Translations under genes and position numbers: made by a program | In this document: piece by piece, positions 17,999 to 52,092 of the stretch | Position numbering within the stretch: the stretch's first letter is position 1 | Layout of the letters: each line of letters opens with the position of its first letter | The notes under the pieces: generated by a model | Told to the model about the DNA's origin: nothing | What the model saw: the letters and a program-made list of their open reading frames with translations, nothing else | The model's database searches: none | Origin: Planotetraspora silvatica | GTDB taxonomy: Bacteria; Actinomycetota; Actinomycetes; Streptosporangiales; Streptosporangiaceae | Reading direction: 5' to 3' | Assembly: GCF_016863315.1 (NCBI RefSeq) | Contig: NZ_BOOQ01000037.1 | Coordinates: 1 to 64,000 of the forward strand | DNA: 64,000 nt

Positions 17999-20092
17999 AT
18001 GCGAATTCGGGGAGATCGGCAGCCCGCCCTGGCGCGGGGGATCGTCACCGTCGTGCTGGCCGGATTCGCGGGCGTCTACGTCCTTGCCGGATCACCACTG
18101 GCGATCGTGGTGCTCGGGCTCCAACTCGTCTACGTGTTCCCCGGCCTGCGGAAGTCGCGGGGGTGGTGGCTGCTCGCCGTACAGGCTGTGGTCGTCTCCA
18201 CCGCGACACTCGGTTTCGGCACCTCCGTCGGGATCGCCGGCTTCCTGGGCGGGTCCCTGCTGCTCACCTCGTGGTGGCCGCTCGCCGTGCCGGTCGCGGT
18301 CGGCGCCGTGCTGATCGGGCCGGCCGATTCGGCGATCAGCATGGTGCTGATCAGTCTGGTGATCTACGGCCTGACCAGGCTCACCGAGCGGGTCGACGAG
18401 GTGCACGCCGCGCGGACGGCCCTGGCGATGGCCGCGGTCGCGGAGGAGCGGTTGCGGATCTCCGCCGAGCTCAGCCAGGGCCTGGGCAACGGGCTCGTTG
18501 AGATCACCAAGGGCGTGCGGCTGGCTCTCGCGGACCCGGGCCGCGCGGGAGAGACGCTCGGCGAGGTCACGAGTGCCGCTCGCGCCTTCCTCGCCGACGC
18601 AAGGAACGCCGCCGCGAGCTACCGCGCGACGTCGCTGGCGCCAGAGGTCGCCACCGCCCGCACGATGCTGGCGGCCGCGGGGGTGACGACGGACGTGCGC
18701 GCCGGCGACGTCGAGCCGGTGGGCCCCACGGGGGCACTGCTCGCCACCGTGCTGCGCGAGGCCGTCACCGAGATCCTGCGGCGGGCCGTGGCGCGCACCT
18801 GCTCGATCGAGGTCGTGTCCGCAGGAGGGACGGTACGGCTCCGCGTCGTCAGCGACGACGCCAGGACCGCCGAGGACGAGGGCTTCGGCGACCTGCCCGC
18901 CCGGATCGCCGCTGCGGGCGGCACCTTGTCCACGGGGCTCACCCCCGAGGGCCGGCTGGTCGTCGAGGCCGTGGTCCCCGAGGTCCGGCGGCCGGTGGAG
19001 GCCGTTGAGGAGCGGGGAGCCTACGTGCTCTCCGTCGCCCTGCTGGCCACGGTGCTGGTGGGTTTCTCGGTCAAGGCGCTGCTCCTCGTCCCGGGCGTCG
19101 AGATCGTCGCCGCGGCCGTCTGCCTCGCGGTCATCGTCGTCATGCAGCTCAGGTCGGTCGACGGGCGCCACATGGTGGCGCTGGCGCTGATGGCACTGCT
19201 CACCTACCTGCCGATCCTCGCGTTCGGCCGCGCGTGGCTCGGCGTGGCCGGGTTCCTCGCGGGTCCCCTGCTGCTCGTCTTCCCGTGGGCGGTGGCCTGG
19301 CCGCTGGTCGCGTGCGTGATGGCGAGCACCGCGTTGATCGCGGTACGGCTCGGCCTGCCGCTCGAGGTGACGCTCAACTACACCGTGAGCACGCTGGTGA
19401 CCGGTCTCGTCGTCTACGGCCTGATCCGGCTGGCCCGGCAGGTGAGGGAACTGCAGGACCTACGGCGGGAGCTCGCTCGTGCGGCGGTCGTCGAGGAACG
19501 CCTGCGCGCCGCCCGCGACCTGCACGACCTGCTCGGGCACAGCCTCGCCGCGATCCTGCTCAAATGCGAGCTGGCCCGTCGCCTGGACCCTGTGCGGGCC
19601 CGAGCCGAGTTGGAGGACGTGCTGGTCATGGCGGTGCGGGCCGAGGCGGACATGCGGGCCGTGTCGGGCGAGGCGCAGGGGATGTCCCTGGACGCGGAGG
19701 CTCGGTCGGCTCGGTCGGTGTTGTCCGCCGCGGGCATCGAGACCGAGGTCGACCTCGTGGAGCAGGAGCTTCCCGCCGAGGTGGAGTACGTGCTCGGCGT
19801 GGTGCTGCGCGAGGCGGTGACCAACGTGCTCAGGCACAGCACCGCCGATTTCTGCCGGATCTCGACCACGCCGGCCGATGGGGGGATGCGGCTCCGGGTC
19901 CGCAACGACGGGGCGCGTCCGGCCGCCCGCGGACGAGGCTCGTCCGGGATCGGCAACCTGACCGTCCGCCTCGCCGCCCTGGGGGGAACGCTCACGGCCG
20001 GAGCGGATGACGGCTGGTTCGAACTCGACGCCTGGGCTCCCGTGTCACCGTCATACGTGGGCGGTCCTGTGCCCGCCGGCGGGCCGGGCTAG
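17999..20092 (+). CDS. Tandem two-module DesK/NarL-type sensor histidine kinase, first module degenerate
   Basis: This 697-residue protein repeats a complete DesK-like kinase twice: membrane block (about 13-125), kinase-like region (about 140-330), second membrane block (about 345-475), kinase (about 495-680). In module 2, VEERLRAARDLHDLLGHS holds the phospho-accepting His509 and the ATPase half ends with GIGNLTVRLAALGG. In module 1 the matching segment is AEERLRISAELSQGLGNG: Ser159 replaces His, Gln160 replaces Asp, and Asn replaces the second His. Module 1 is therefore a pseudokinase. The ATG at 17999 sits outside the divergent rlmG gene and directly before the first membrane segment. It faces a LuxR regulator with a four-base stop overlap and lies near an ABC transporter. 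Confidence 0.88.
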   Translation: MRIRGDRQPALARGIVTVVLAGFAGVYVLAGSPLAIVVLGLQLVYVFPGLRKSRGWWLLAVQAVVVSTATLGFGTSVGIAGFLGGSLLLTSWWPLAVPVAVGAVLIGPADSAISMVLISLVIYGLTRLTERVDEVHAARTALAMAAVAEERLRISAELSQGLGNGLVEITKGVRLALADPGRAGETLGEVTSAARAFLADARNAAASYRATSLAPEVATARTMLAAAGVTTDVRAGDVEPVGPTGALLATVLREAVTEILRRAVARTCSIEVVSAGGTVRLRVVSDDARTAEDEGFGDLPARIAAAGGTLSTGLTPEGRLVVEAVVPEVRRPVEAVEERGAYVLSVALLATVLVGFSVKALLLVPGVEIVAAAVCLAVIVVMQLRSVDGRHMVALALMALLTYLPILAFGRAWLGVAGFLAGPLLLVFPWAVAWPLVACVMASTALIAVRLGLPLEVTLNYTVSTLVTGLVVYGLIRLARQVRELQDLRRELARAAVVEERLRAARDLHDLLGHSLAAILLKCELARRLDPVRARAELEDVLVMAVRAEADMRAVSGEAQGMSLDAEARSARSVLSAAGIETEVDLVEQELPAEVEYVLGVVLREAVTNVLRHSTADFCRISTTPADGGMRLRVRNDGARPAARGRGSSGIGNLTVRLAALGGTLTAGADDGWFELDAWAPVSPSYVGGPVPAGGPG

Positions 20093-20697
20093 ATCCAGCC
20101 GGCCTCGGTCGCGATGCGGACCGCGTCCGTGCGGTTGCGGGCGTTGAGCTTGCCGACGATCGTGGTGAGGTAGTTGCGCACCGTTCCCGCGCTGAGGAAG
20201 AGCCGCCCGGCGATCTCGGTCGCCTCCGCGCCCTCGGCCACCAGGCGGAGCACGTCCGCCTCGCGCGGGGTAAGCGGGTTGTCGGCCAGGTCCCACGCGG
20301 TGAGCGCCAGCGACGGATCGAGTACGCGCCGGCCGGCCGCGACCTCGCGGATCGCCTCCACCAGGCGCTCGGGGGGCGCGGTCTTGAGCAGGAAGCCGTC
20401 CACCTGCGCGTTGAGCGCCCTGCGCAGATGCCCCGGCTTGCCGTACCCGGTCAGCATGAGGACCCGGCAACCGGGCAGCTTCGCGCGGAGCTCGGCCGCG
20501 GCGGCCAGGCCGTCCAGGGTGCCGGGCATGTCGATGTCGAGCACCGCGACGTCGGGACGGTGCACCAGGGCCGCGGGGACGACGGCGTCGCCCGACTCGA
20601 CCGAATGGACGACCTCCAGGTCGGGTTCGAGACCGAGCAACGCGACCAGCGCTCCCCTGATGATGTGCTGATCCTCCGCCAGAAGCACATGAATCAC
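20089..20697 (-). CDS. LuxR/NarL-family response regulator
   Basis: The 202-residue regulator has a receiver domain with acidic pocket AEDQ (8-10), phospho-acceptor Asp54 in VAVLDIDMPG, and Lys in GFLLKTAPPE. The C-terminal LuxR helix-turn-helix is PLTPREADVLRLVAEGAEATEIAGRLF through GTVRNYLTTIVGKL. It is tail-to-tail with the double kinase, the overlap being four bases at the stop codons, and divergent from the ABC transporter. It is the obvious partner of the kinase and a likely activator of the transporter, as in LiaR- and DesR-like systems. Confidence 0.92.
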   Translation of the reverse strand: MIHVLLAEDQHIIRGALVALLGLEPDLEVVHSVESGDAVVPAALVHRPDVAVLDIDMPGTLDGLAAAAELRAKLPGCRVLMLTGYGKPGHLRRALNAQVDGFLLKTAPPERLVEAIREVAAGRRVLDPSLALTAWDLADNPLTPREADVLRLVAEGAEATEIAGRLFLSAGTVRNYLTTIVGKLNARNRTDAVRIATEAGWI

Positions 20698-20795
20698 AGG
20701 GGAATGTCTACCAGTGTCCGATTCATGATGACGTCATGGTTGATCGGTGATCGCGTCCCTGGTTCGTCCTTCCACAGGTCAGCAGGGTGGAAGCC

Positions 20796-21527
20796 ATGAC
20801 AGACGTGGTTTCTTTGGACGCGGTGAGCAAGGTCTACGGCAAGGGACAGGGCGCCGTGGCCGCTCTGCGAGAGGTGTCGGCGGGCTTCCCCGCAGGCAGT
20901 TTCACGGCGGTGATGGGCCCCTCCGGGTCGGGCAAGAGCACGCTCCTGCACTGCGCCGCCGGGCTGGACACGCCCACCTCCGGATCCGTACGGCTCGGCG
21001 GCACAGAGCTCGCCGGCATGAACGAGACGCGGCTGACCGAGCTGCGCAGGCGTCGTGTCGGCTTCGTGTTCCAGGCGTTCAACCTGGTCTCGTCGCTGAC
21101 AGTGCTCGAGAACATCACGCTTCCCCTGCGGCTGGCCGGGGTCGCGGTCGACCGGGCGTGGCTGAAGGAGATCGTCGAACGGGTGGGGCTCGCCGGCCGC
21201 GCCGGTCACCGCCCGGCGCAACTGTCGGGCGGGCAGCAGCAGCGCGTGGCCATCGCCCGTGCGCTGGTCACCAGGCCGGAGGTGGTGTTCGGTGACGAGC
21301 CGACCGGCGCGCTCGACACCATGACCGCCCGTGACGTGCTCGCACTGCTGCGTCAGGTCGTGGACGGGATGGGCCAGACGGTCGTCATGGTGACGCACGA
21401 CCCGGTGGCGGCGTCGTACGCGGACACGGTCCTGTTCCTGGCCGACGGCCGCATCGTGGACGAGATGACGGACCCGACCTCGGAGAAGGTCGCCGAGCGG
21501 ATGACCCGGCTGGGAGCGTGGAACTGA
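20796..21527 (+). CDS. ABC transporter ATP-binding protein (MacB/LolD type)
   Basis: The 243-residue ATPase has Walker [10 protein letters not shown] at 41-49, Q-loop [16 protein letters not shown], signature LSGGQQQR at 143-150, Walker B VVFGDEP and switch His in MVTHDP. The sequence is typical of the MacB/LolD group that partners FtsX-like permeases. A GTG at 20787 is in frame, but AGGGTGG sits correctly for the ATG at 20796. Its stop overlaps the permease start (TGATG). Lying beside the two-component genes, it may export a peptide antibiotic or envelope compound. Confidence 0.92.
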
Positions 21528-23977
21528 TGATCGGATTCGCTCTCAGGACCCTGCGGCACCGCAAGGCCGGGTTCGCGGGCTCGTTCGTCGCCCTGCTGTT
21601 CGCCGCCATGCTGGTCTGCGCCTGCGGGATGTTGCTGGAGACCGGGTTGCGCGGCGGCGTCGCCCCCGAGCGCTACGCGGGGACGCCGGTGATCGTGGCG
21701 GGCGACCAGTTCGTCCGGCAGACGATCCAGAAGTCCGGCGGCAAGTCGAAGACCAAGGCCAAGCCGCTGGCCGGGCACGCGTGGCTACCCGCGTCGCTCG
21801 CCACGTCGCTGGGCGAGGTCGCCGGCGTCACCAAGGTGATCAGTGAGGTGACCTTCCCCGTTTACGTCGGGAACGGCCGGGCGAGTGGGCACGGGTGGGA
21901 GTCGGCGGGGCTCACGCCGTTCACGCTACGTGCCGGGCGCGCCCCGGCGGCCGCCGACGAGGTGGTCGTGGACGCCCGCTCCGGCCTCTCCGTGGGCGCC
22001 CGGCTGGACGCGGTGACCGCCGCGGGGGCGCGGACCTACCGGGTGACCGGTGTCACCGCACAGTCCCTGCCCAGCCAGGACACGCTCTTCTTCAGCACCG
22101 CCGAGGCGCGCCGCCTGGCCGGCAGGCCGGGCCAGGTCAGCGCCATCGGGATCTTCTCGCGAGGGGAGGTCTCCGCCGTGCCGGCGAACGCGTCGGCCGT
22201 GCTCAAGACCGCCAGGGCCTTCGCCCACACGGGTGACGACCGTGGCGCCATCGAGTTCCCCGACGCGGAGCAGGCGCGGGTGCGGCTGATCAGTCTCGGC
22301 GGAGCCCTGGGCGGCACGTCGCTGCTGGTCGCCGTCCTCGTCGTCGTGGGCACCTTCGCCCTGTCCATCCAGCAGCGCGAGAGGGAGATCGCCCTGCTGC
22401 GGGCCGTCGCCGCCACGCCTCGCCAGGTGCGCCGGATGCTCGGCGGCGAGGCCCTCCTGGTCGCCGCCGTCGCCGGGTCGGCCGGTTCCGTCGCGGGCAT
22501 CGGGCTGGGCTTCTGGCTGCGTGACAGGTTCGTCGCGCTGGGCGCGATGCCCGAGCACCTGCGGCTGGTGGTCAGCCCGTTCCCCACGTTGGCGGCGCTG
22601 CTGGCCACGATGCTGGCCGCCTGGGCGGCGGCCCGGCTCTCGGCCCGCCGGGCCGCCAGGATCCGCCCGGTGGAGGCGCTCGGTGAGGCGGCCCTGCCGG
22701 GGACCAGGCCGTCCTGGGGGCGGATGATCGCCGGTCTGGTCTGTGTGGGCGGCGGCGTGGCGCTGACCATCGTGTTGTCGGCGTTGTCGGTGGAGGCCGC
22801 GTCGAGTCCAGTGACCCTGCTCACCGCACTGGTCTGGACGACCGCCGTGGCGCTGCTCGGCCCGGTCATCGCCCGTGCCGCGATCGCTCTGCTCGGGGTG
22901 CCGTTGCGGCTGTCCGGGGTCGGGGGCCACCTGGCCGCCGCGAACCTCCGCACCGGGTCCAGGCGGGTGGCGTCCGTCATCACGCCGCTCAGTCTGCTGG
23001 TGGCGATGACCGGCACGATCCTGTTCGTCCAGACCACGATGGGGCACGCCGCCGAGCGGGAGGCCGCAGCCGGGGGCCGCGCCGACTACGTCCTCGGCCC
23101 CCACCTGCCGGGCGCCGCCGCGCAGGCACTGCGCGAGACGCCCGGTGTGCTTGCGGTCACCGAGGTGCTGCGCACGTCGGTGCGGGTCGGCCTGGAGAAG
23201 TACGGCGCACAGGCGGTCACCCCGGAAGGGCTGGACCGGACCGTCGACCTGGGTGTGGTGGCGGGCTCGCTCAGGGATCTCGGCCAGGACGGCGTAGCGG
23301 TGAGCGAGACCGCGGCCGCCCGTCTGGGCGTCGCGGTGGGCGGGCGGATCCACCTCGCCCTGGGCGACGGCACGCCCGTGGCGCCGACCGTCGTGGCGAT
23401 CTACGCCCGGGGTCTGGGATACGGAGACCTCACGCTCGCCCACGCGCTGGTCGCGCCGCACGTGGACGACGCGCTCGGCACCCTGCTCGTCTCAGCACCC
23501 ACGCTCCCGCGGGCCGCGATCATCGCGGCCGTTCCGGGGGCCGCCGTGCTCGACCAGGCTCAGGCGGCGGACGCGGCCGCGCCCAACGCCGAGGTCAACT
23601 ACGTGGCCATGGGCCTGATCATCGCGTTCACCGCGATCGCCGTGGTCAACACCCTGGCGATGTCGACGTCGGACAGAGCGCGTGAGCTCGCGCTGCTCCG
23701 CCTGGTCGGAACCACCCGGCGCCAGGTGCTCCGGATGCTGAGGCTGGAGACGCTCATGGCGGTCGTGGTCGCCGTGGCGCTCGGGACCGGGATCTCACTG
23801 GTCACGCTGTCGGCGTTCAGTTCGGGCATGACCGGGTCGGCCGTGCCGTACGTTCCGCCGTTCACCTACCTGGCGGTGGTCGCCGTCGCGGCGATCCTGG
23901 CGCTGGCCGCCACCGCGATCCCGGCGAGGCTCGTCCTCCGGCAGCGGCCCGCGGACGCGATCGGCGCACGTCAGTGA
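21527..23977 (+). CDS. FtsX-like (MacB-type) ABC transporter permease
   Basis: The 816-residue protein carries two FtsX permease domains. An N-terminal membrane helix is followed by an extracytoplasmic domain (about 45-245) and three helices (about 260-380), then further helices from about 400. A second extracytoplasmic domain (about 510-680) and three final helices (about 690-810) complete it. Both FtsX domains carry the conserved loop REREIALLRAVAATPRQVRRM or RARELALLRLVGTTRRQVLRM. The ATG at 21527 overlaps the ATPase stop and has GGGAG at a good distance; GTG 21518 is less likely. Confidence 0.9.
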   Translation: MIGFALRTLRHRKAGFAGSFVALLFAAMLVCACGMLLETGLRGGVAPERYAGTPVIVAGDQFVRQTIQKSGGKSKTKAKPLAGHAWLPASLATSLGEVAGVTKVISEVTFPVYVGNGRASGHGWESAGLTPFTLRAGRAPAAADEVVVDARSGLSVGARLDAVTAAGARTYRVTGVTAQSLPSQDTLFFSTAEARRLAGRPGQVSAIGIFSRGEVSAVPANASAVLKTARAFAHTGDDRGAIEFPDAEQARVRLISLGGALGGTSLLVAVLVVVGTFALSIQQREREIALLRAVAATPRQVRRMLGGEALLVAAVAGSAGSVAGIGLGFWLRDRFVALGAMPEHLRLVVSPFPTLAALLATMLAAWAAARLSARRAARIRPVEALGEAALPGTRPSWGRMIAGLVCVGGGVALTIVLSALSVEAASSPVTLLTALVWTTAVALLGPVIARAAIALLGVPLRLSGVGGHLAAANLRTGSRRVASVITPLSLLVAMTGTILFVQTTMGHAAEREAAAGGRADYVLGPHLPGAAAQALRETPGVLAVTEVLRTSVRVGLEKYGAQAVTPEGLDRTVDLGVVAGSLRDLGQDGVAVSETAAARLGVAVGGRIHLALGDGTPVAPTVVAIYARGLGYGDLTLAHALVAPHVDDALGTLLVSAPTLPRAAIIAAVPGAAVLDQAQAADAAAPNAEVNYVAMGLIIAFTAIAVVNTLAMSTSDRARELALLRLVGTTRRQVLRMLRLETLMAVVVAVALGTGISLVTLSAFSSGMTGSAVPYVPPFTYLAVVAVAAILALAATAIPARLVLRQRPADAIGARQ

Positions 23978-44686: not shown

Positions 44687-45850
44687 GTGCACGTCAGGCG
44701 GGTGAGCGCGGTGATCGCATCGTCGCTCCTCTTCGTGGCCGGATGCTCGAATTCCGGTGTCAATGCGGCGCCCGCTCAGTCGGCGGCCGATCCTCCCATC
44801 CAGCTATCGACCAGTCACTGCGGCGAGGGGTGGGCCCATCCCACCGCCGGCCCGCAGACACTGTCGATCACCAACACCGGCACCACGGCGGCGGACGCCG
44901 ACGTGATCGCCGTGCCCGGCGGCGCTGTCTACGGCGAGCTCGAAGGGCTGGCGCCCGGTGTCACAAGGTCCCTGCCCATCACGCTCGGTCAGGGCACGTA
45001 CGCCATCCGGTGCCAGCCCGAGGACGGCGACCCCATTGTCGGTCCCTCGGTCCACATCGCGGGATCCGCGAAGTCCGGTCCGGCCGCGGTCCCCGTCACC
45101 TACAACGACCTGTACGGCCCGACGCGCGAGTACCAGGACTACGTGGCCGGCGGAGTGAAGACGCTCCTGGCCAAGACGAAGACGCTGGTGGCGGCCGTCG
45201 ATCGCAAGGACCTCAAGGCCGCCAAAAAGGCCTGGCTGCCCGCCCATCTGGCCTACGAGAAGCTGGGCGCGGCCTACGACACCTTCGGCGACTTCGGCGA
45301 CGCGATCGACGGCCTTCCGCAGGGTCTGGCGAAGGGCGTGCACGATCCGGACTTCGCCGGTTTCCACCGCGTGGAGTACGGCCTGTGGCACGGCGAGTCC
45401 GCGGCCTCGCTGCGGTCGCCGGCCGATCGCCTGCTCAAGGACGTCAAGGGCCTGAAGGCCGACCTGCCCAACGAGGACATGGAGCCCGGCGACCTCCCGC
45501 TGCGCGCGCACGAGATCATGGAGAACACCCTCCAGTTCGAGCTCACCGAGAAGGCCGACCAGGGCAGCGGCACCTCGCTGGCCACGGCTTCGGCGAACCT
45601 CGATGGCACACGCCAGGCGGTCGAGGTCCTGCGGCCGCTGCTCAAGTCCCGCTACACCGGGCTGCCGCAGATGGACGCGGATCTGGACCGGGTCCAGAAG
45701 CTGCTCGACGCGCAGAAGCACGGCGACTCGTGGACGCCCGTCGCGGGTCTCGCCACGTCGGACCGCGAGTCCATCGACGGCGCGGTGGGCGAGCTGCTCG
45801 AACGCCTGGCCCCGATCGCCTCCATCTGCTACCCAAGGCGGACCTCATGA
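44687..45850 (+). CDS. efeO: Iron uptake lipoprotein EfeO
   Basis: The 387-residue protein has lipobox LFVAGC (Cys20), an N-terminal cupredoxin-like domain (about 35-125, with Cys45 and Cys109) and a C-terminal M75/imelysin domain with the metal motif HRVE (His227, Glu230). The start is GTG with AAGGGGAG upstream. In E. coli and Bacillus, EfeO hands iron to the EfeU permease. Here efeB follows with an ATGA overlap, but no efeU gene is present on either side. Confidence 0.92.
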   Translation: MHVRRVSAVIASSLLFVAGCSNSGVNAAPAQSAADPPIQLSTSHCGEGWAHPTAGPQTLSITNTGTTAADADVIAVPGGAVYGELEGLAPGVTRSLPITLGQGTYAIRCQPEDGDPIVGPSVHIAGSAKSGPAAVPVTYNDLYGPTREYQDYVAGGVKTLLAKTKTLVAAVDRKDLKAAKKAWLPAHLAYEKLGAAYDTFGDFGDAIDGLPQGLAKGVHDPDFAGFHRVEYGLWHGESAASLRSPADRLLKDVKGLKADLPNEDMEPGDLPLRAHEIMENTLQFELTEKADQGSGTSLATASANLDGTRQAVEVLRPLLKSRYTGLPQMDADLDRVQKLLDAQKHGDSWTPVAGLATSDRESIDGAVGELLERLAPIASICYPRRTS

Positions 45851-47076
45851 GCGGCTACGACCGCAGGATGTTCCTTCGCGGCGCCCTCGCGACCGGGATC
45901 GCCGGCTCCGTGGCCGGAGTGGCCGCGGGGAAGGCCCTCGCGGAGACCTCCACGACTCCCGAGGCCGGTGCGCCGCCGATCCCTCCCTTCCACGGCCCAC
46001 ACCAGGCGGGGATCCTGGCGCCCGCCCGGCGCAGGACGATCGTCGCTGCCTTCGACGTCATGGCGGACGGCCGCGACGAGCTCACGGACCTGTTGCACAC
46101 ACTGACCGATCGGGCGCGCGCCCTCACGTCGGGGGGAACACCTGAGCAGGTCGGTATCACCGCACCGCCGTCCGACTCCGGCATCCTCGGGCCGGACATC
46201 CCGGGTGGCGACCTGATGCTCACGGTGGGCGTCGGCGCCTCCCTGTTCGACGACCGGTACGGCCTGGCCTCGCGCAAGCCGTCCCGGCTGACGCGGATGC
46301 CGACGTTCCCCAACGACGATCTCGACCCCGCGTGGTGTCACGGCGACCTGAGCCTGCAGTTGGAGGCGGACGACGACGACACGCTGCTGCACGCGCTGCG
46401 CGACATCGCCAAGCACACGCGCGGCGGGATGCAGGTCCGCTGGCGCATGAACGGGTTCTCCAACCCGTCCAGACCGACCGGAACTCAGCGGAACCTTCTG
46501 GGCTTCAAGGACGGCATCGCCAACCCGGACGCCACGAAGGCCGCCGAGATGGACCGGCGCGTCTGGGCGAGCGGCAAAGCGCCCGAGCCGGCCTGGACGG
46601 CGGGCGGCAGCTACCTCGTCGTCCGGCTCATCCGGATGCTCGTGGAGTTCTGGGACCGCGTCGGGCTCGACGAGCAGGAGAAGATGTTCGGCCGCGCCAA
46701 GGACACCGGTGCCCCGCTGGACGGCGCTCACGAGCAGGACGCACCCCAGTACCAGAACGACCCCGAGGGCTTGGTCATCCCGCTCGACAGCCACATCCGG
46801 CGGGCGAACCCGCGTACGCCCCAGACGGACGACAGCCGGATCCTGCGGCGGGGCTTCAACTACGACCGGGGCATGGACTCCGTCGGCAACCTCGACGTCG
46901 GCCTGATCTTCACCTGCTATCAGCAGGATCTCCAGCGGCAGTTCGAGGCGACCCAGAAGCGGCTGGCGGACGAGCCGCTCGTCGACTACATCTCGCCGTT
47001 CGGCGGCGGGTATTTCTTCGCACTTCCGGGCGTACAGGATTCATTCAGGTCATTTGCAGGATTTGTGAAGGTTTGA
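45847..47076 (+). CDS. efeB: Deferrochelatase/DyP-type peroxidase EfeB
   Basis: The 409-residue DyP-type heme peroxidase has a Tat signal (YDRRMFLRGALATGIAG), the distal GFKDG motif (219-223, Asp222) and the proximal heme His316 in DSHIRRANPRT. EfeB is exported folded with heme and oxidises Fe(II) or releases iron from heme for EfeO/EfeU. Translation is coupled to efeO. Confidence 0.92.
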   Translation: MSGYDRRMFLRGALATGIAGSVAGVAAGKALAETSTTPEAGAPPIPPFHGPHQAGILAPARRRTIVAAFDVMADGRDELTDLLHTLTDRARALTSGGTPEQVGITAPPSDSGILGPDIPGGDLMLTVGVGASLFDDRYGLASRKPSRLTRMPTFPNDDLDPAWCHGDLSLQLEADDDDTLLHALRDIAKHTRGGMQVRWRMNGFSNPSRPTGTQRNLLGFKDGIANPDATKAAEMDRRVWASGKAPEPAWTAGGSYLVVRLIRMLVEFWDRVGLDEQEKMFGRAKDTGAPLDGAHEQDAPQYQNDPEGLVIPLDSHIRRANPRTPQTDDSRILRRGFNYDRGMDSVGNLDVGLIFTCYQQDLQRQFEATQKRLADEPLVDYISPFGGGYFFALPGVQDSFRSFAGFVKV

Positions 47077-49009: not shown

Positions 49010-50242
49010 TCATCCGTCCACGGCGAGCAGGTTGAGCACGTCGAGCTTGCCGCGCCCGGCCTCCCAGGAGAGCAGCGGGGACGACGAGGTGGCTCTCCAT
49101 GAGTACCCGACGGGACGCACTCCGACGATGGCCTTCTTCCCGGTGTTCAGGTCGTACACGACCGCTCCCGACATCTGGGCGAAGTGCGAACCGAGAGGCG
49201 GCAGCAAGTACGACGACGGCACCGGAATCCGGCTGAGCCCCGAGCCGTCGGGCCGCATGACGATGACCGCGTTACCCATCCGGCCGAGGCACCATTCGAT
49301 CGAGCAGCCCAACCCCTTCACGCCGGCAGGGGGAATGATGGTCCTCGTCTCACCCGTCTCCAGGTTGACGAGCTTGCTCTGGTTGCGGTCCTGCACCTGG
49401 CCGATCCGGATGGGGGGCACGTCCACGGCCCACGGCCAGGACTGCAACCACAGGCCGTCGGTGCCCGCCAGCTTCTCCGGGGAGCCCCCGGTGATCGGCA
49501 TGCGGTAGACCCCGCCGGGCCGGATCGACCAGACGAAGGAGTCCGACGACACCCCGATCGCGCTGACACCGGACAGGTCGCCGGTCACCTCGCCGACCTT
49601 GATCGCCGCACCGCCCGCGCGCGGTGCGACCCAGAAGTCCGCCCACCCGCCCTTCCTGCCGTTGAGCATCGTGCCGTACCAGCCGATGTAGTCCGCACCC
49701 ACCTCGAAGCGCCACTGGTGGTAATCCTTCTTGGAGGCGGGCATCCGCGTGATGACGCGGCTCTCGCCCGTCCCCGTGTCGTAGACGTCGAGCCGGTCGA
49801 TCTTCGAGAACTTCGTTCTGGCGATCATGAGCAACTCCGTCGGGCTGAGAGCCGTGAGAGGGGAGTAGCCGGAACCGTCCGGCGCCTCCGCCGGAATCGT
49901 GAACACGGCATCCGGCCACACCGTGCGCGCCGGCAGGAACTTTCTGAGGTCCGGCCCTGCGGGCCCTGCGGAGGGCGGTGCGGAAGCGGGCGAGGCGGTC
50001 GTGGCGTGCGTGGTCGGGGCGGCCGTGGTTCCGGCGTCCGTCGAACCGCCCCCGCCCCCGCGGAGGACGGCCGATCCCCCGGCCACGACGATGACCACCA
50101 CTGCGGAGGCCAGTGCGGCCTGGTGGCGACGGTGTGTCCGCCTTCTGCGCCGGACGCGCACGGCGTCGGCGATGTCGGCAGGATCCACAGCCCGCGCGGC
50201 GGCCTCCTGGAGGGCCGCTCTCAAGTCCTGTTCGGTTCTCAC
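49010..50242 (-). CDS. Membrane-anchored beta-propeller-like protein partnered with a SigE-family sigma factor
   Basis: The 410-residue protein has a cytoplasmic N-terminus (TEQDLRAALQEAAARAV), one membrane helix at about 42-60 (LASAVVVIVVAGGSAVL), a Gly/Thr/Ser linker and an extracytoplasmic domain with repeated blades (KLVNLETGETRTI, VVYDLNTGKKAIVG) like TolB/WD-type propellers. Its GTG overlaps the sigma stop codon and follows GGAGGAA. The arrangement suggests an anti-sigma or sensor role for the upstream sigma factor (inference). Confidence 0.8.
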   Translation of the reverse strand: MRTEQDLRAALQEAAARAVDPADIADAVRVRRRRRTHRRHQAALASAVVVIVVAGGSAVLRGGGGGSTDAGTTAAPTTHATTASPASAPPSAGPAGPDLRKFLPARTVWPDAVFTIPAEAPDGSGYSPLTALSPTELLMIARTKFSKIDRLDVYDTGTGESRVITRMPASKKDYHQWRFEVGADYIGWYGTMLNGRKGGWADFWVAPRAGGAAIKVGEVTGDLSGVSAIGVSSDSFVWSIRPGGVYRMPITGGSPEKLAGTDGLWLQSWPWAVDVPPIRIGQVQDRNQSKLVNLETGETRTIIPPAGVKGLGCSIEWCLGRMGNAVIVMRPDGSGLSRIPVPSSYLLPPLGSHFAQMSGAVVYDLNTGKKAIVGVRPVGYSWRATSSSPLLSWEAGRGKLDVLNLLAVDG

Positions 50243-50721
50243 ACTTCCTCCATCAGTGCCGCACGCCTGCCGACGCGCAGCTTGTCGAGGGCCCGCGAGG
50301 CCTGGCTCCGCACGGTTCCGGTCGAGACGCCGAGGATCGCGGCGATCTCCGCGTCCGGCAGGTCCTCGTAGTAGCGCAGGACCAGCACGGCCCGCTGCCG
50401 GGGCGGGAGGGTTGCGAGCTCGGCCCACAACGCGTCGTCCCCGTCGAGCCGCACGTCGGTGTAGCCGCGATCCGGTGCGTCCGCCATCAGACGCTCACGC
50501 CGACGGCGGCGCCACCAGCTGATGTGCTGCCGGGCCATGATCGTCCGGACGTAGCCTTCCGGGTCGTCCTTGCGGATCACCCGGTGCCAGGAGTCGCCCA
50601 GGCGAAGCAGCGCCTCCTGTACGAGGTCCGCCGCGTCGTCCACGTCGCCCGTCAGGACGAATCCGTATCGGAACAACGCATTGCCGCGTCCCCGGACGAA
50701 GTCGTCGAAGGTGTCGTCCAT
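50239..50721 (-). CDS. SigE-family ECF sigma factor
   Basis: The 160-residue protein is typical of the actinobacterial SigE family (TIGR02983-like): FDDFVRGRGNALFRYGFVLTGD, DAADLVQEALLRL, the basic WWRRRRRE, and region 4 LPPRQRAVLVLRYYEDLPDAEIAAILGVSTGTVRSQASRALDKL. It is cotranscribed with the membrane partner downstream and divergent from a two-component system. Confidence 0.92.
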   Translation of the reverse strand: MDDTFDDFVRGRGNALFRYGFVLTGDVDDAADLVQEALLRLGDSWHRVIRKDDPEGYVRTIMARQHISWWRRRRRERLMADAPDRGYTDVRLDGDDALWAELATLPPRQRAVLVLRYYEDLPDAEIAAILGVSTGTVRSQASRALDKLRVGRRAALMEEV

Positions 50722-50847
50722 GACATCAGAGACGTCTCATCACCGGAGAACGTTGCACGCGGTCGCCGAATGGTGGGGTTTACCCCACCATGGATTCGGA
50801 TGGTCGGCCCATGTCGCCGGGCGGACGCGATCTCTACCGTTGTCATC

Positions 50848-52092
50848 ATGACCGCCACCGACCTGAGCACTCCTTGGGACAGGGTCCGCGTCCACTGGTC
50901 CGCACCGACCTGGCTTCGCACCGTCCACGTGGCTACGGGTCTTCCGATCGCGCTCGCCGCCGTCGGTGTGATCGGTGGGCTGGCCGTCGTGTCGGTGGTG
51001 TTCTCCTGGACCGTGGTGGCGCCGCTGGTCGGCCTGCCGCTGCTCTTCTGGTCGGTGACGGTCTTCACCCGGTTGCAGCGCAAACGCTTCGCGGCCTATC
51101 TGGGTGTGGAGATCGCCCCGGTGCCGCGCCCCGCCGCCGGCCGCGATCCGGTGCGGCGCCTGTTCCGCGACATGCGGTCGAGGAGTGTGTGGCGGCAGGT
51201 CGCCTACCACGTCATCGCGCCGATGATCAGCGTGGCCGGGTTCGTCGCGGTGATCGTGGCCTGGTCCGCGTGCCTGGTCGCGGCGGGGCTCGCCCTCCGT
51301 CTGTGGCTGGTGGGAAGCGGATGGACGGGGTCCCTGCTCGCCCTGCTCGCGTTCGCGGTGTTCGTGGTCGTCCCCTGGGTGGTGCAGGGTGTCACCTCGC
51401 TCGACGTCGTCGCGGCGGAGGCGCTGCTCGGGCCCAGCCTCAACGACCAGCTCGCCGAGCGGGTGGAGAGCCTCCGGGAGAGCCGTGCCGAGGTGGTCGA
51501 GGCGGCGGACGCCGAACGCCGCCGGATCGAGCGCGACCTGCACGACGGCACCCAGCAGCGGCTCCTCGGGCTGGCCATGAACCTGGGCATGGCCCGCGCC
51601 ACCCTCACTGACCTGCCCGAACCGGTCAGGGAAGTGATCGCCCAGGCGCACGAGGACTCCAAGCTCGTCCTGAAGGAGTTGCGGGACGTCGTGCGTGGTC
51701 TCCACCCGGCCGTGCTCACCGAGGAGGGTCTCGACGCCGCGCTGTCCGGACTGGCCGCGCGGGCGTCCTTCCCCGTACGGCTCCACGTCGACGTGACGGA
51801 ACGAGTCTCGCCTACGGTGGAGGCCGTGGCGTTCTTCGTCGTGTCCGAGGCCCTGACCAACATCTCCAAGCACGCTCAGGCGAACAGTGCGGAGATCGTC
51901 GTACGGCGTGCGGGCGACCGCCTTCACCTCACGGTCCTCGACGACGGCAGGGGAGGAGCCGCGCCGGACGCGGGAGGCGGCACGGGGCTGCGCGGCCTGG
52001 CGCAGAGAGTCGGCTCGGTCGACGGGGCGTTGCGCATCGACAGTCCGCCCGGCGGTCCGACCAGGATCGAGGCGGAGCTTCCGTGCGCGTAG
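50848..52092 (+). CDS. NarL-type sensor histidine kinase
   Basis: The 414-residue kinase has an N-terminal membrane region (helices about 33-72 and 128-185), a coiled linker (LAERVESLRESRAEVVEAADAE), His232 in ERDLHDGTQQRL, and an HATPase ending TGLRGLAQRVGSVDGAL. ATG 50848 is taken because the sequence before it lies outside the family. Its end overlaps the response regulator by 10 bases. Confidence 0.92.
   Translation: MTATDLSTPWDRVRVHWSAPTWLRTVHVATGLPIALAAVGVIGGLAVVSVVFSWTVVAPLVGLPLLFWSVTVFTRLQRKRFAAYLGVEIAPVPRPAAGRDPVRRLFRDMRSRSVWRQVAYHVIAPMISVAGFVAVIVAWSACLVAAGLALRLWLVGSGWTGSLLALLAFAVFVVVPWVVQGVTSLDVVAAEALLGPSLNDQLAERVESLRESRAEVVEAADAERRRIERDLHDGTQQRLLGLAMNLGMARATLTDLPEPVREVIAQAHEDSKLVLKELRDVVRGLHPAVLTEEGLDAALSGLAARASFPVRLHVDVTERVSPTVEAVAFFVVSEALTNISKHAQANSAEIVVRRAGDRLHLTVLDDGRGGAAPDAGGGTGLRGLAQRVGSVDGALRIDSPPGGPTRIEAELPCA

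Follow-up and report, generated by a model that had tools for sequence, protein, structure and literature searches.

A fused double DesK-type sensor kinase with a conserved, histidine-less first half in Planotetraspora silvatica and its relatives

Histidine kinases usually work as dimers, and the need for both subunits, cis versus trans phosphorylation and the asymmetry of the active state have been studied largely with engineered or mutant pairs. The stretch of DNA analysed here (hereafter the window; 64,000 bp of Planotetraspora silvatica contig NZ_BOOQ01000037.1) raises the question of how a kinase would work in which two such modules lie in one polypeptide and the first of them is devoid of its histidine. 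The gene (17999–20092, forward strand) encodes a fused double sensor histidine kinase of 697 aa, starts with ATG, and is read in the same open frame in relatives. Both modules are DesK-related and of TM-DHp-CA layout. In module 1 the membrane part spans residues 8–130 (18020–18388; from hydropathy and AlphaFold helices), the pseudo-DHp residues 131–212 (18389–18634) and the pseudo-CA residues 213–330 (18635–18988), and in module 2 the membrane part (residues 336–480, 19004–19438; from hydropathy and model helices) is followed by a DHp (residues 481–560, 19439–19678; HisKA_3) and a CA (residues 561–680, 19679–20038) with intact motifs, all on the forward strand. When the kinase was cut at residue 339/340, the halves aligned with a BLASTP E-value of 2e-40 and 36% identity over 330 columns, and the double layout is therefore not due to chance. 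This alignment had been proposed as a check in an earlier note on the same DNA, and it bears out the note's view of two membrane-plus-kinase modules within one polypeptide.

The best solved relative of both halves was DesK of the DesK-DesR system (Bacillus subtilis; HisKA_3 kinase, NarL-type regulator), according to sequence (E 3.5e-20 for module 2, E 1.2e-8 for module 1) as well as to fold searches, in which DesK ranked first. The CA fold of module 2 matched the DesK CA domain 3ehg (rmsd 1.7, 120 residues). Against HisKA_3 (Pfam cut-off 24 bits), the whole kinase scored 51 bits with its best stretch at residues 500–558, and module 2 alone 39.3 bits; module 1 stayed below the cut-off with 15 and 19.3 bits and, having Ser159, does not qualify as a phospho-His DHp. 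HATPase_c, as the GHKL ATPase test for module 2, gave 21.1 bits, under its cut-off of 26.4 bits. With DesK-like HisKA_3 kinases the window kinase shares the phospho-His DHp and the N-box Asn, both in module 2, and a NarL-type partner regulator, but it departs from their one module per chain in having two. Among 56 HisKA_3 matches at E ≤ 0.1 in the whole 8.66 Mb genome, 17999–20092 was the sole frame with two, as judged by coordinates and open frames. Because Pfam scores the first half below cut-off, other pairs with a dead half may sit unnoticed.

The motif LHDLLGH starts at residue 508 of module 2 and includes His509 (codon 19523–19525), Asp510 and His514, as the earlier note had it, and its counterpart from residue 158 of module 1 is LSQGLGN (Ser159, codon 18473–18475; Gln160; Asn164). 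The N-box reads EAVTN in module 2 (Asn609, codon 19823–19825) versus EAVTE in module 1 (Glu258, codon 18770–18772), where the G-box is reduced. Module 1 is thereby also without the Mg-binding Asn of the ATP site, a loss beyond those listed before. Residues were counted in 106 different clade sequences, the window included. For inclusion both modules had to be recognised, and the regulator had to reach 71% identity unless the locus was on a hand list of nine. Outside these counts stand L024, L116, L190 and L203 (a single module, a truncation or a shift), L121 and L192 (regulator neighbourhood in which no kinase was found), L021 of G030, and L025 of G040, a full double which the hand list missed and the motifs of which agree.

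Position 159 was Asn in 55, Ser in 37, Asp in 10, Gly in 1 and Arg in 1 of the sequences, with 2 gaps, and His in none of the 104 readable ones. The orthologue check suggested for Ser159/Gln160 thus came out in favour of a position 159 free of histidine, though with Asn commoner than Ser. An acidic residue (D or E) was kept at position 160 by 57 of the 104 readable sequences; the claimed loss of the aspartate is thus not general, unlike that of the phospho-accepting His. Asn was found at N-box position 258 in none of the 106 sequences, where an acidic residue prevailed (100/106; Asp 64, Glu 36, others 6). Arg253 and Asp286 of module 1, the latter standing at the place of the adenine-binding Asp, were present in 106/106, and His509, Asp510, Asn609 and Asp637 were invariant in 106/106 each. 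The ATP site of module 1 is degenerate but kept, contrary to the unconserved site which the note had named as grounds for giving up its reading. The CA fold is retained, too: residues 211–329 were superposed by VIA-align on the VanSA CA domain 8dwz over 118 residues (rmsd 2.7, Z 13.2). With a kinase fold, its catalytic residues gone and conservation throughout, module 1 is a probable pseudokinase, a case of conservation without catalytic residues as far as sequence tells. In L013 and L092 the module-2 motif is LHDLLGS, with Ser instead of the second His, which corresponds in position to the phosphatase Gln of DesK.

With the kinase as query, matches at E ≤ 1e-60 were obtained in 21 of 120 genomes (counting that of the window), and the occurrence was patchy. 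Of the four remaining genomes of the genus, three matched at this threshold; the fourth (G001) had, among the matches listed, neither the kinase at E ≤ 1e-60 nor the regulator at E ≤ 1e-62, and the genus can hence do without the system. The regulator as query returned hits at E ≤ 1e-62 in at least 218 of 341 family genomes, paralogues included. The regions studied are a chosen part of the regulator hits (80 + 20 + 9), and 13 of the first 80 were picked at 62–69% identity, aimed at distant forms. Clade loci, defined by a regulator at least 71% identical, numbered 129, some being the same genome twice, and 120 of them carried two full modules in a single frame. Of the other nine, L176, L201 and L203 were cut by a contig end, L110 was a double aligned in part only, L024 had lost CA1 in frame, L116 was the partial deletion with a changed frame described below, the kinase of L190 was frameshifted, and near the regulator of L121 and L192 no kinase was found. 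Two separate intact genes, which the earlier note would have taken as a refutation, were seen in none of the 129 clade loci. That sequencing or assembly had joined two genes was rejected with next to no residual doubt: the genome is a draft of 117 contigs, which leaves room for such an error, but the identical fused frame recurs in many independent genomes, several of them with one to five contigs.

Named clade members belong to species of Planotetraspora, Sphaerisporangium, Microtetraspora, Streptosporangium and Nonomuraea, and the kinase of Planotetraspora mira was 95% identical to that of the window. The plasmid collection returned eight records, of which six from Streptomyces and one from Embleya matched the module-2 part only (36–39% of the query); the eighth, from Nonomuraea gerenzanensis, matched residues 11–486 and may be a further clade member. 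In L021 (G030) the kinase match ends after residue 451, and the locus lacks module 2 as well as the regulator and some of the exporter; this gap may be a natural deletion or an assembly error.

In a tree of 52 kinase modules, including 15 chosen clade members, the clade first modules formed one group (100/99) and the second modules another (100/98), which suggests a single round of duplication, fusion and catalytic loss before the sampled members parted. The earlier note's intragenic duplication with one pseudokinase half gains support from the alignment of the halves, the lost catalytic residues, the tree and the selection on module 1 described below; refined in two respects, the duplication appears older than the clade rather than recent, and module 1 is more degenerate than described, the Asn being lost as well. 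Outside the clade, L027 and L152 contained single kinases, and L147, a distant relative, had two adjacent genes, the sole two-gene form seen and a possible illustration of a route to fusion. In L140, L142, L143 and L204, the last of another family, the two modules are fused and each of them retains His and the N-box Asn. In L150 the arrangement is a mirror image, with a dead second half (RKVNELLDR, N-box Asp). Short forms, in which the first half consists of TM and DHp without CA, occurred in L144 (twice, two ORFs), L145 and L148, and also in L222 and L223 of a third family; in L144 the first half has kept its His, CA being absent. Module 2 of L150 fell with the first modules of the clade (84/84), perhaps through long-branch attraction, and the tree therefore does not fix the number of independent losses. 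The intact modules of L140 (G031) are almost identical, with branch lengths of 0.011 and 0.02, suggestive of recent duplication or gene conversion. The two short-form double kinases of L144 (G259) follow each other in one orientation, separated by the regulator gene, and in L149 (3220–5460; G013) about 2.2 kb separates the double kinase from the regulator, a gap absent from the window.

Module 1 is under purifying selection, to judge from dN/dS values in five pairs of close relatives, which were 0.25–0.39 for DHp1+CA1, 0.16–0.35 for DHp2+CA2 and 0.20–0.54 for the membrane parts. In 60 aligned sequences, 27 of 200 columns were invariant in DHp1+CA1 and 40 of 200 in DHp2+CA2. Both results, together with the full-length double frame in nearly all clade loci and the unvarying Arg253 and Asp286, stand against neutral decay, by which module 1 would be a functionless remnant of duplication. 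Such decay might be read from the long stem branch of module 1 (0.87 vs 0.27 for module 2), from the deletion of CA1 in L024 and from L116, which is without DHp1-CA1 and part of TM2 and has a changed frame; it was rejected as very improbable.

The kinase is met tail-to-tail by a NarL/LuxR response regulator of 202 aa (20089–20697, reverse strand; Response_reg and GerE domains), the phospho-acceptor of which is likely Asp54 in VLDIDMP. The two stop codons overlap by four bases (CTAG); this overlap, pointed out in the earlier note, is true in the window but not conserved, the genes being ca. 100 bases apart in L080. On its other side the regulator diverges from an ABC transporter ATPase (20787–21527, forward strand), for which the closest models were MacB and LolD, both below their cut-offs, and an FtsX-type ABC permease of 819 aa (21518–23977, forward strand). 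Among ten named loci the convergent regulator was found in 10 and the full exporter in 9, and regulator and ATPase diverged within 400 bases in 72 of 78 clade loci. Outside the clade, a window-like ATPase was found in 1 of 11 loci (L148, 44%), some of these stretches being short.

Between regulator and exporter lies a conserved pair of operator-like boxes (20726–20757). The motif TGAnnnnGTCA was present in 60 of 69 distinct intergenics, the window included, versus 0.24 in base shuffles, which keep base composition only and ignore sequence kinship; in 55 intergenics its first base lies 61 bases ahead of the start of the ATPase gene, and a second box was found in 63 of the 69. The composite pattern occurs once in the 8.66 Mb genome, at 20726–20757. 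The conserved boxes, the uniqueness of the pattern and the regulator/exporter synteny support a dedicated local circuit with a putative operator, and they speak for the suggestion of a regulated ABC transporter next door.

AlphaFold prediction of the whole chain (60 sequences) gave pLDDT 86.4 and pTM 0.71, and the control with module 2 alone (59 sequences) pLDDT 88.4 and pTM 0.58. Halves free of mutual contact should give a pTM below that of a single half, and the model therefore seems to pack them together, pTM being one global number and AlphaFold being acquainted with kinase dimers. Several DesK and CpxA chains were aligned by VIA-align across the whole model from DHp1 to CA2 (138/139 to 681–685). 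The DesK rows over this range mostly fitted poorly (rmsd 8.6–12.1), except 5iuj_A with 3.5 over 146 residues, which on module 2 alone had 11.7 over 187; CpxA 4cb0_B fitted both alike (4.7 over 187 on the whole model, 5.0 over 182 on module 2 alone), and these superpositions speak but weakly for pairing of the halves. Mean-field DCA on 106 sequences (Neff 37) gave no usable signal between the halves and no enrichment inside the modules either.

The reading we consider probable is a covalent asymmetric kinase. The two DesK-like modules of one chain would pair via their DHp helices and membrane parts, module 1 serving as a permanent dimer partner and second membrane sensor, and module 2 alone would do the chemistry, with ATP bound by CA2 and His509 phosphorylated in cis. 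The phosphoryl group would pass from His509 to Asp54 of the tail-to-tail regulator, which would bind the pair of boxes lying within the 61 bases ahead of the ABC/FtsX operon, switching the exporter and probably its own gene. The two modules, the loss of His and Asn in module 1, the conservation of module 2, selection, synteny and boxes enter this model from the sequences, and the packing of the halves from structure prediction. We infer that phosphorylation proceeds in cis, that each molecule has a single active site, that both membrane parts sense and that the exporter is under control of the system. Wherever one half has lost its chemistry, the His and the CA that survive are found together: in module 2 of all 106 clade sequences, in module 1 of L150, and again in module 2 of L024, L144, L145, L148, L222 and L223. 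With internal pairing, phosphorylation would thus have to be in cis. Trans phosphorylation within one chain would predict complementary loss, and no asymmetric double examined had its His in one half and its CA in the other. Dead halves that shrank kept TM and DHp and lost CA, a pattern suggesting that they were retained as dimer partners and sensors. For module 1, we consider a built-in dimer partner and second membrane sensor the likeliest function.

Ordinary DesK-type kinases are homodimers, and so module 2 could instead pair with module 2 of another molecule. In such a homodimer of fused chains, module 1 would pair with module 1 and act as a pseudokinase input steering module 2. We regard this as possible but distinctly less probable: it accords with DesK, itself reported as homodimeric (PMC5231405), it allows trans phosphorylation, His and CA surviving in the same module, and pairing inside one chain is a matter of structure prediction; on the other hand, the global AlphaFold confidence rose with both halves present, and tandem fusion would favour the pairing of neighbours. 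An allosteric role, in which CA1 senses nucleotide through Asp286 and the acidic residue 258, or DHp1 serves as a docking site for the regulator with no phosphotransfer to it, appears improbable. The conservation of Asp286, Arg253 and the acidic 258 suits it and would allow CA1 to bind a nucleotide still, and recruitment of the regulator by a pseudokinase was one explanation offered by the authors in the ChrS case (PMC9491836), but CA1 is missing in L024, L144, L145, L148, L222 and L223, and the N-box Asn is lost in 106/106.

Separate heterodimeric or pseudokinase partners are already known. The phosphotransfer complex of DesK is described as asymmetric, with one regulator per kinase dimer (PMC5231405). 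DesK has one module and homodimerises, whereas in the window kinase two modules per chain build the asymmetry in; if the internal pair is true, the asymmetry known from DesK phosphotransfer would be fixed there. The kinase-like FasB and FasC, which work with FasA in group A Streptococcus, were reported to heterodimerise, with one partner proposed to be a pseudokinase of dispensable kinase domain and, in the authors' model, phosphorylation in trans of a His on the pseudokinase partner (PMC12675982). FasB and FasC are separate genes and the window kinase is one fused frame, in which, unlike that model, His and intact CA share one half and the His is gone from module 1. In Corynebacterium glutamicum, a ChrS pseudokinase mutant was reported to raise output through HrrS, with the heme exporter hrtBA as target, and truncated ChrS itself gave no interaction in the test described there (PMC9491836). 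That case concerns a laboratory mutant, separate genes and separate regulators, unlike the natural fused window kinase.

AbrC1/AbrC2/AbrC3 of Streptomyces coelicolor comprise two kinases and one regulator, with autophosphorylation of both kinases according to a figure legend (PMC4428217). They are likewise an actinobacterial kinase pair with one regulator, but encoded by separate genes. DivL-type pseudokinases are without the usual phospho-His. DivL and other histidine-kinase pseudokinases are reported to be used as regulators (PMC4211667, PMC5361649). Theirs is a polypeptide separate from the active kinase, whereas the pseudokinase half of the window is fused to it. A monomeric EnvZ kinase was reportedly described by Qin et al. 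in 2000. The engineered EnvZ[AAB], with an extra DHp fused to EnvZ, is reported to drive or reverse output in cells (PMC8971529); a chain with two DHp domains and a single CA is thus workable. The same plan is present in the window kinase (one CA with intact motifs) and in L024, L145, L222 and L223; EnvZ[AAB] is man-made, and the natural forms have two membrane parts and a His-less DHp.

Among the papers listed in searches of open-licence literature, none described a double histidine kinase fused in one chain of which one half is a pseudokinase. We find it slightly better than an even chance that these proteins represent a natural class of single-chain asymmetric membrane kinases, with an internal dimer, one His/ATP site and action in cis, which arose by fusion and repeated loss of one half; within it, by the sequences seen, the first half would be dead in most lineages and the second in at least one. 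Evolution has here fused both subunits, silenced one and kept the result in more than 100 sequences, and each half is therefore separately mutable in one gene, with the exporter and the operator-like boxes as a ready read-out.

Two further features of the window were recorded. A second HisKA_3 kinase with a single module and the Pfam 'Sensor' domain (PF13796) is located at 50113–52092 (forward strand). The 777-aa frame at 44743–47076 (forward strand) has DyP-type peroxidase domains at residues 421–764, preceded by ca. 400 residues for which Pfam gave no match at the threshold applied, and its true start may lie further in.
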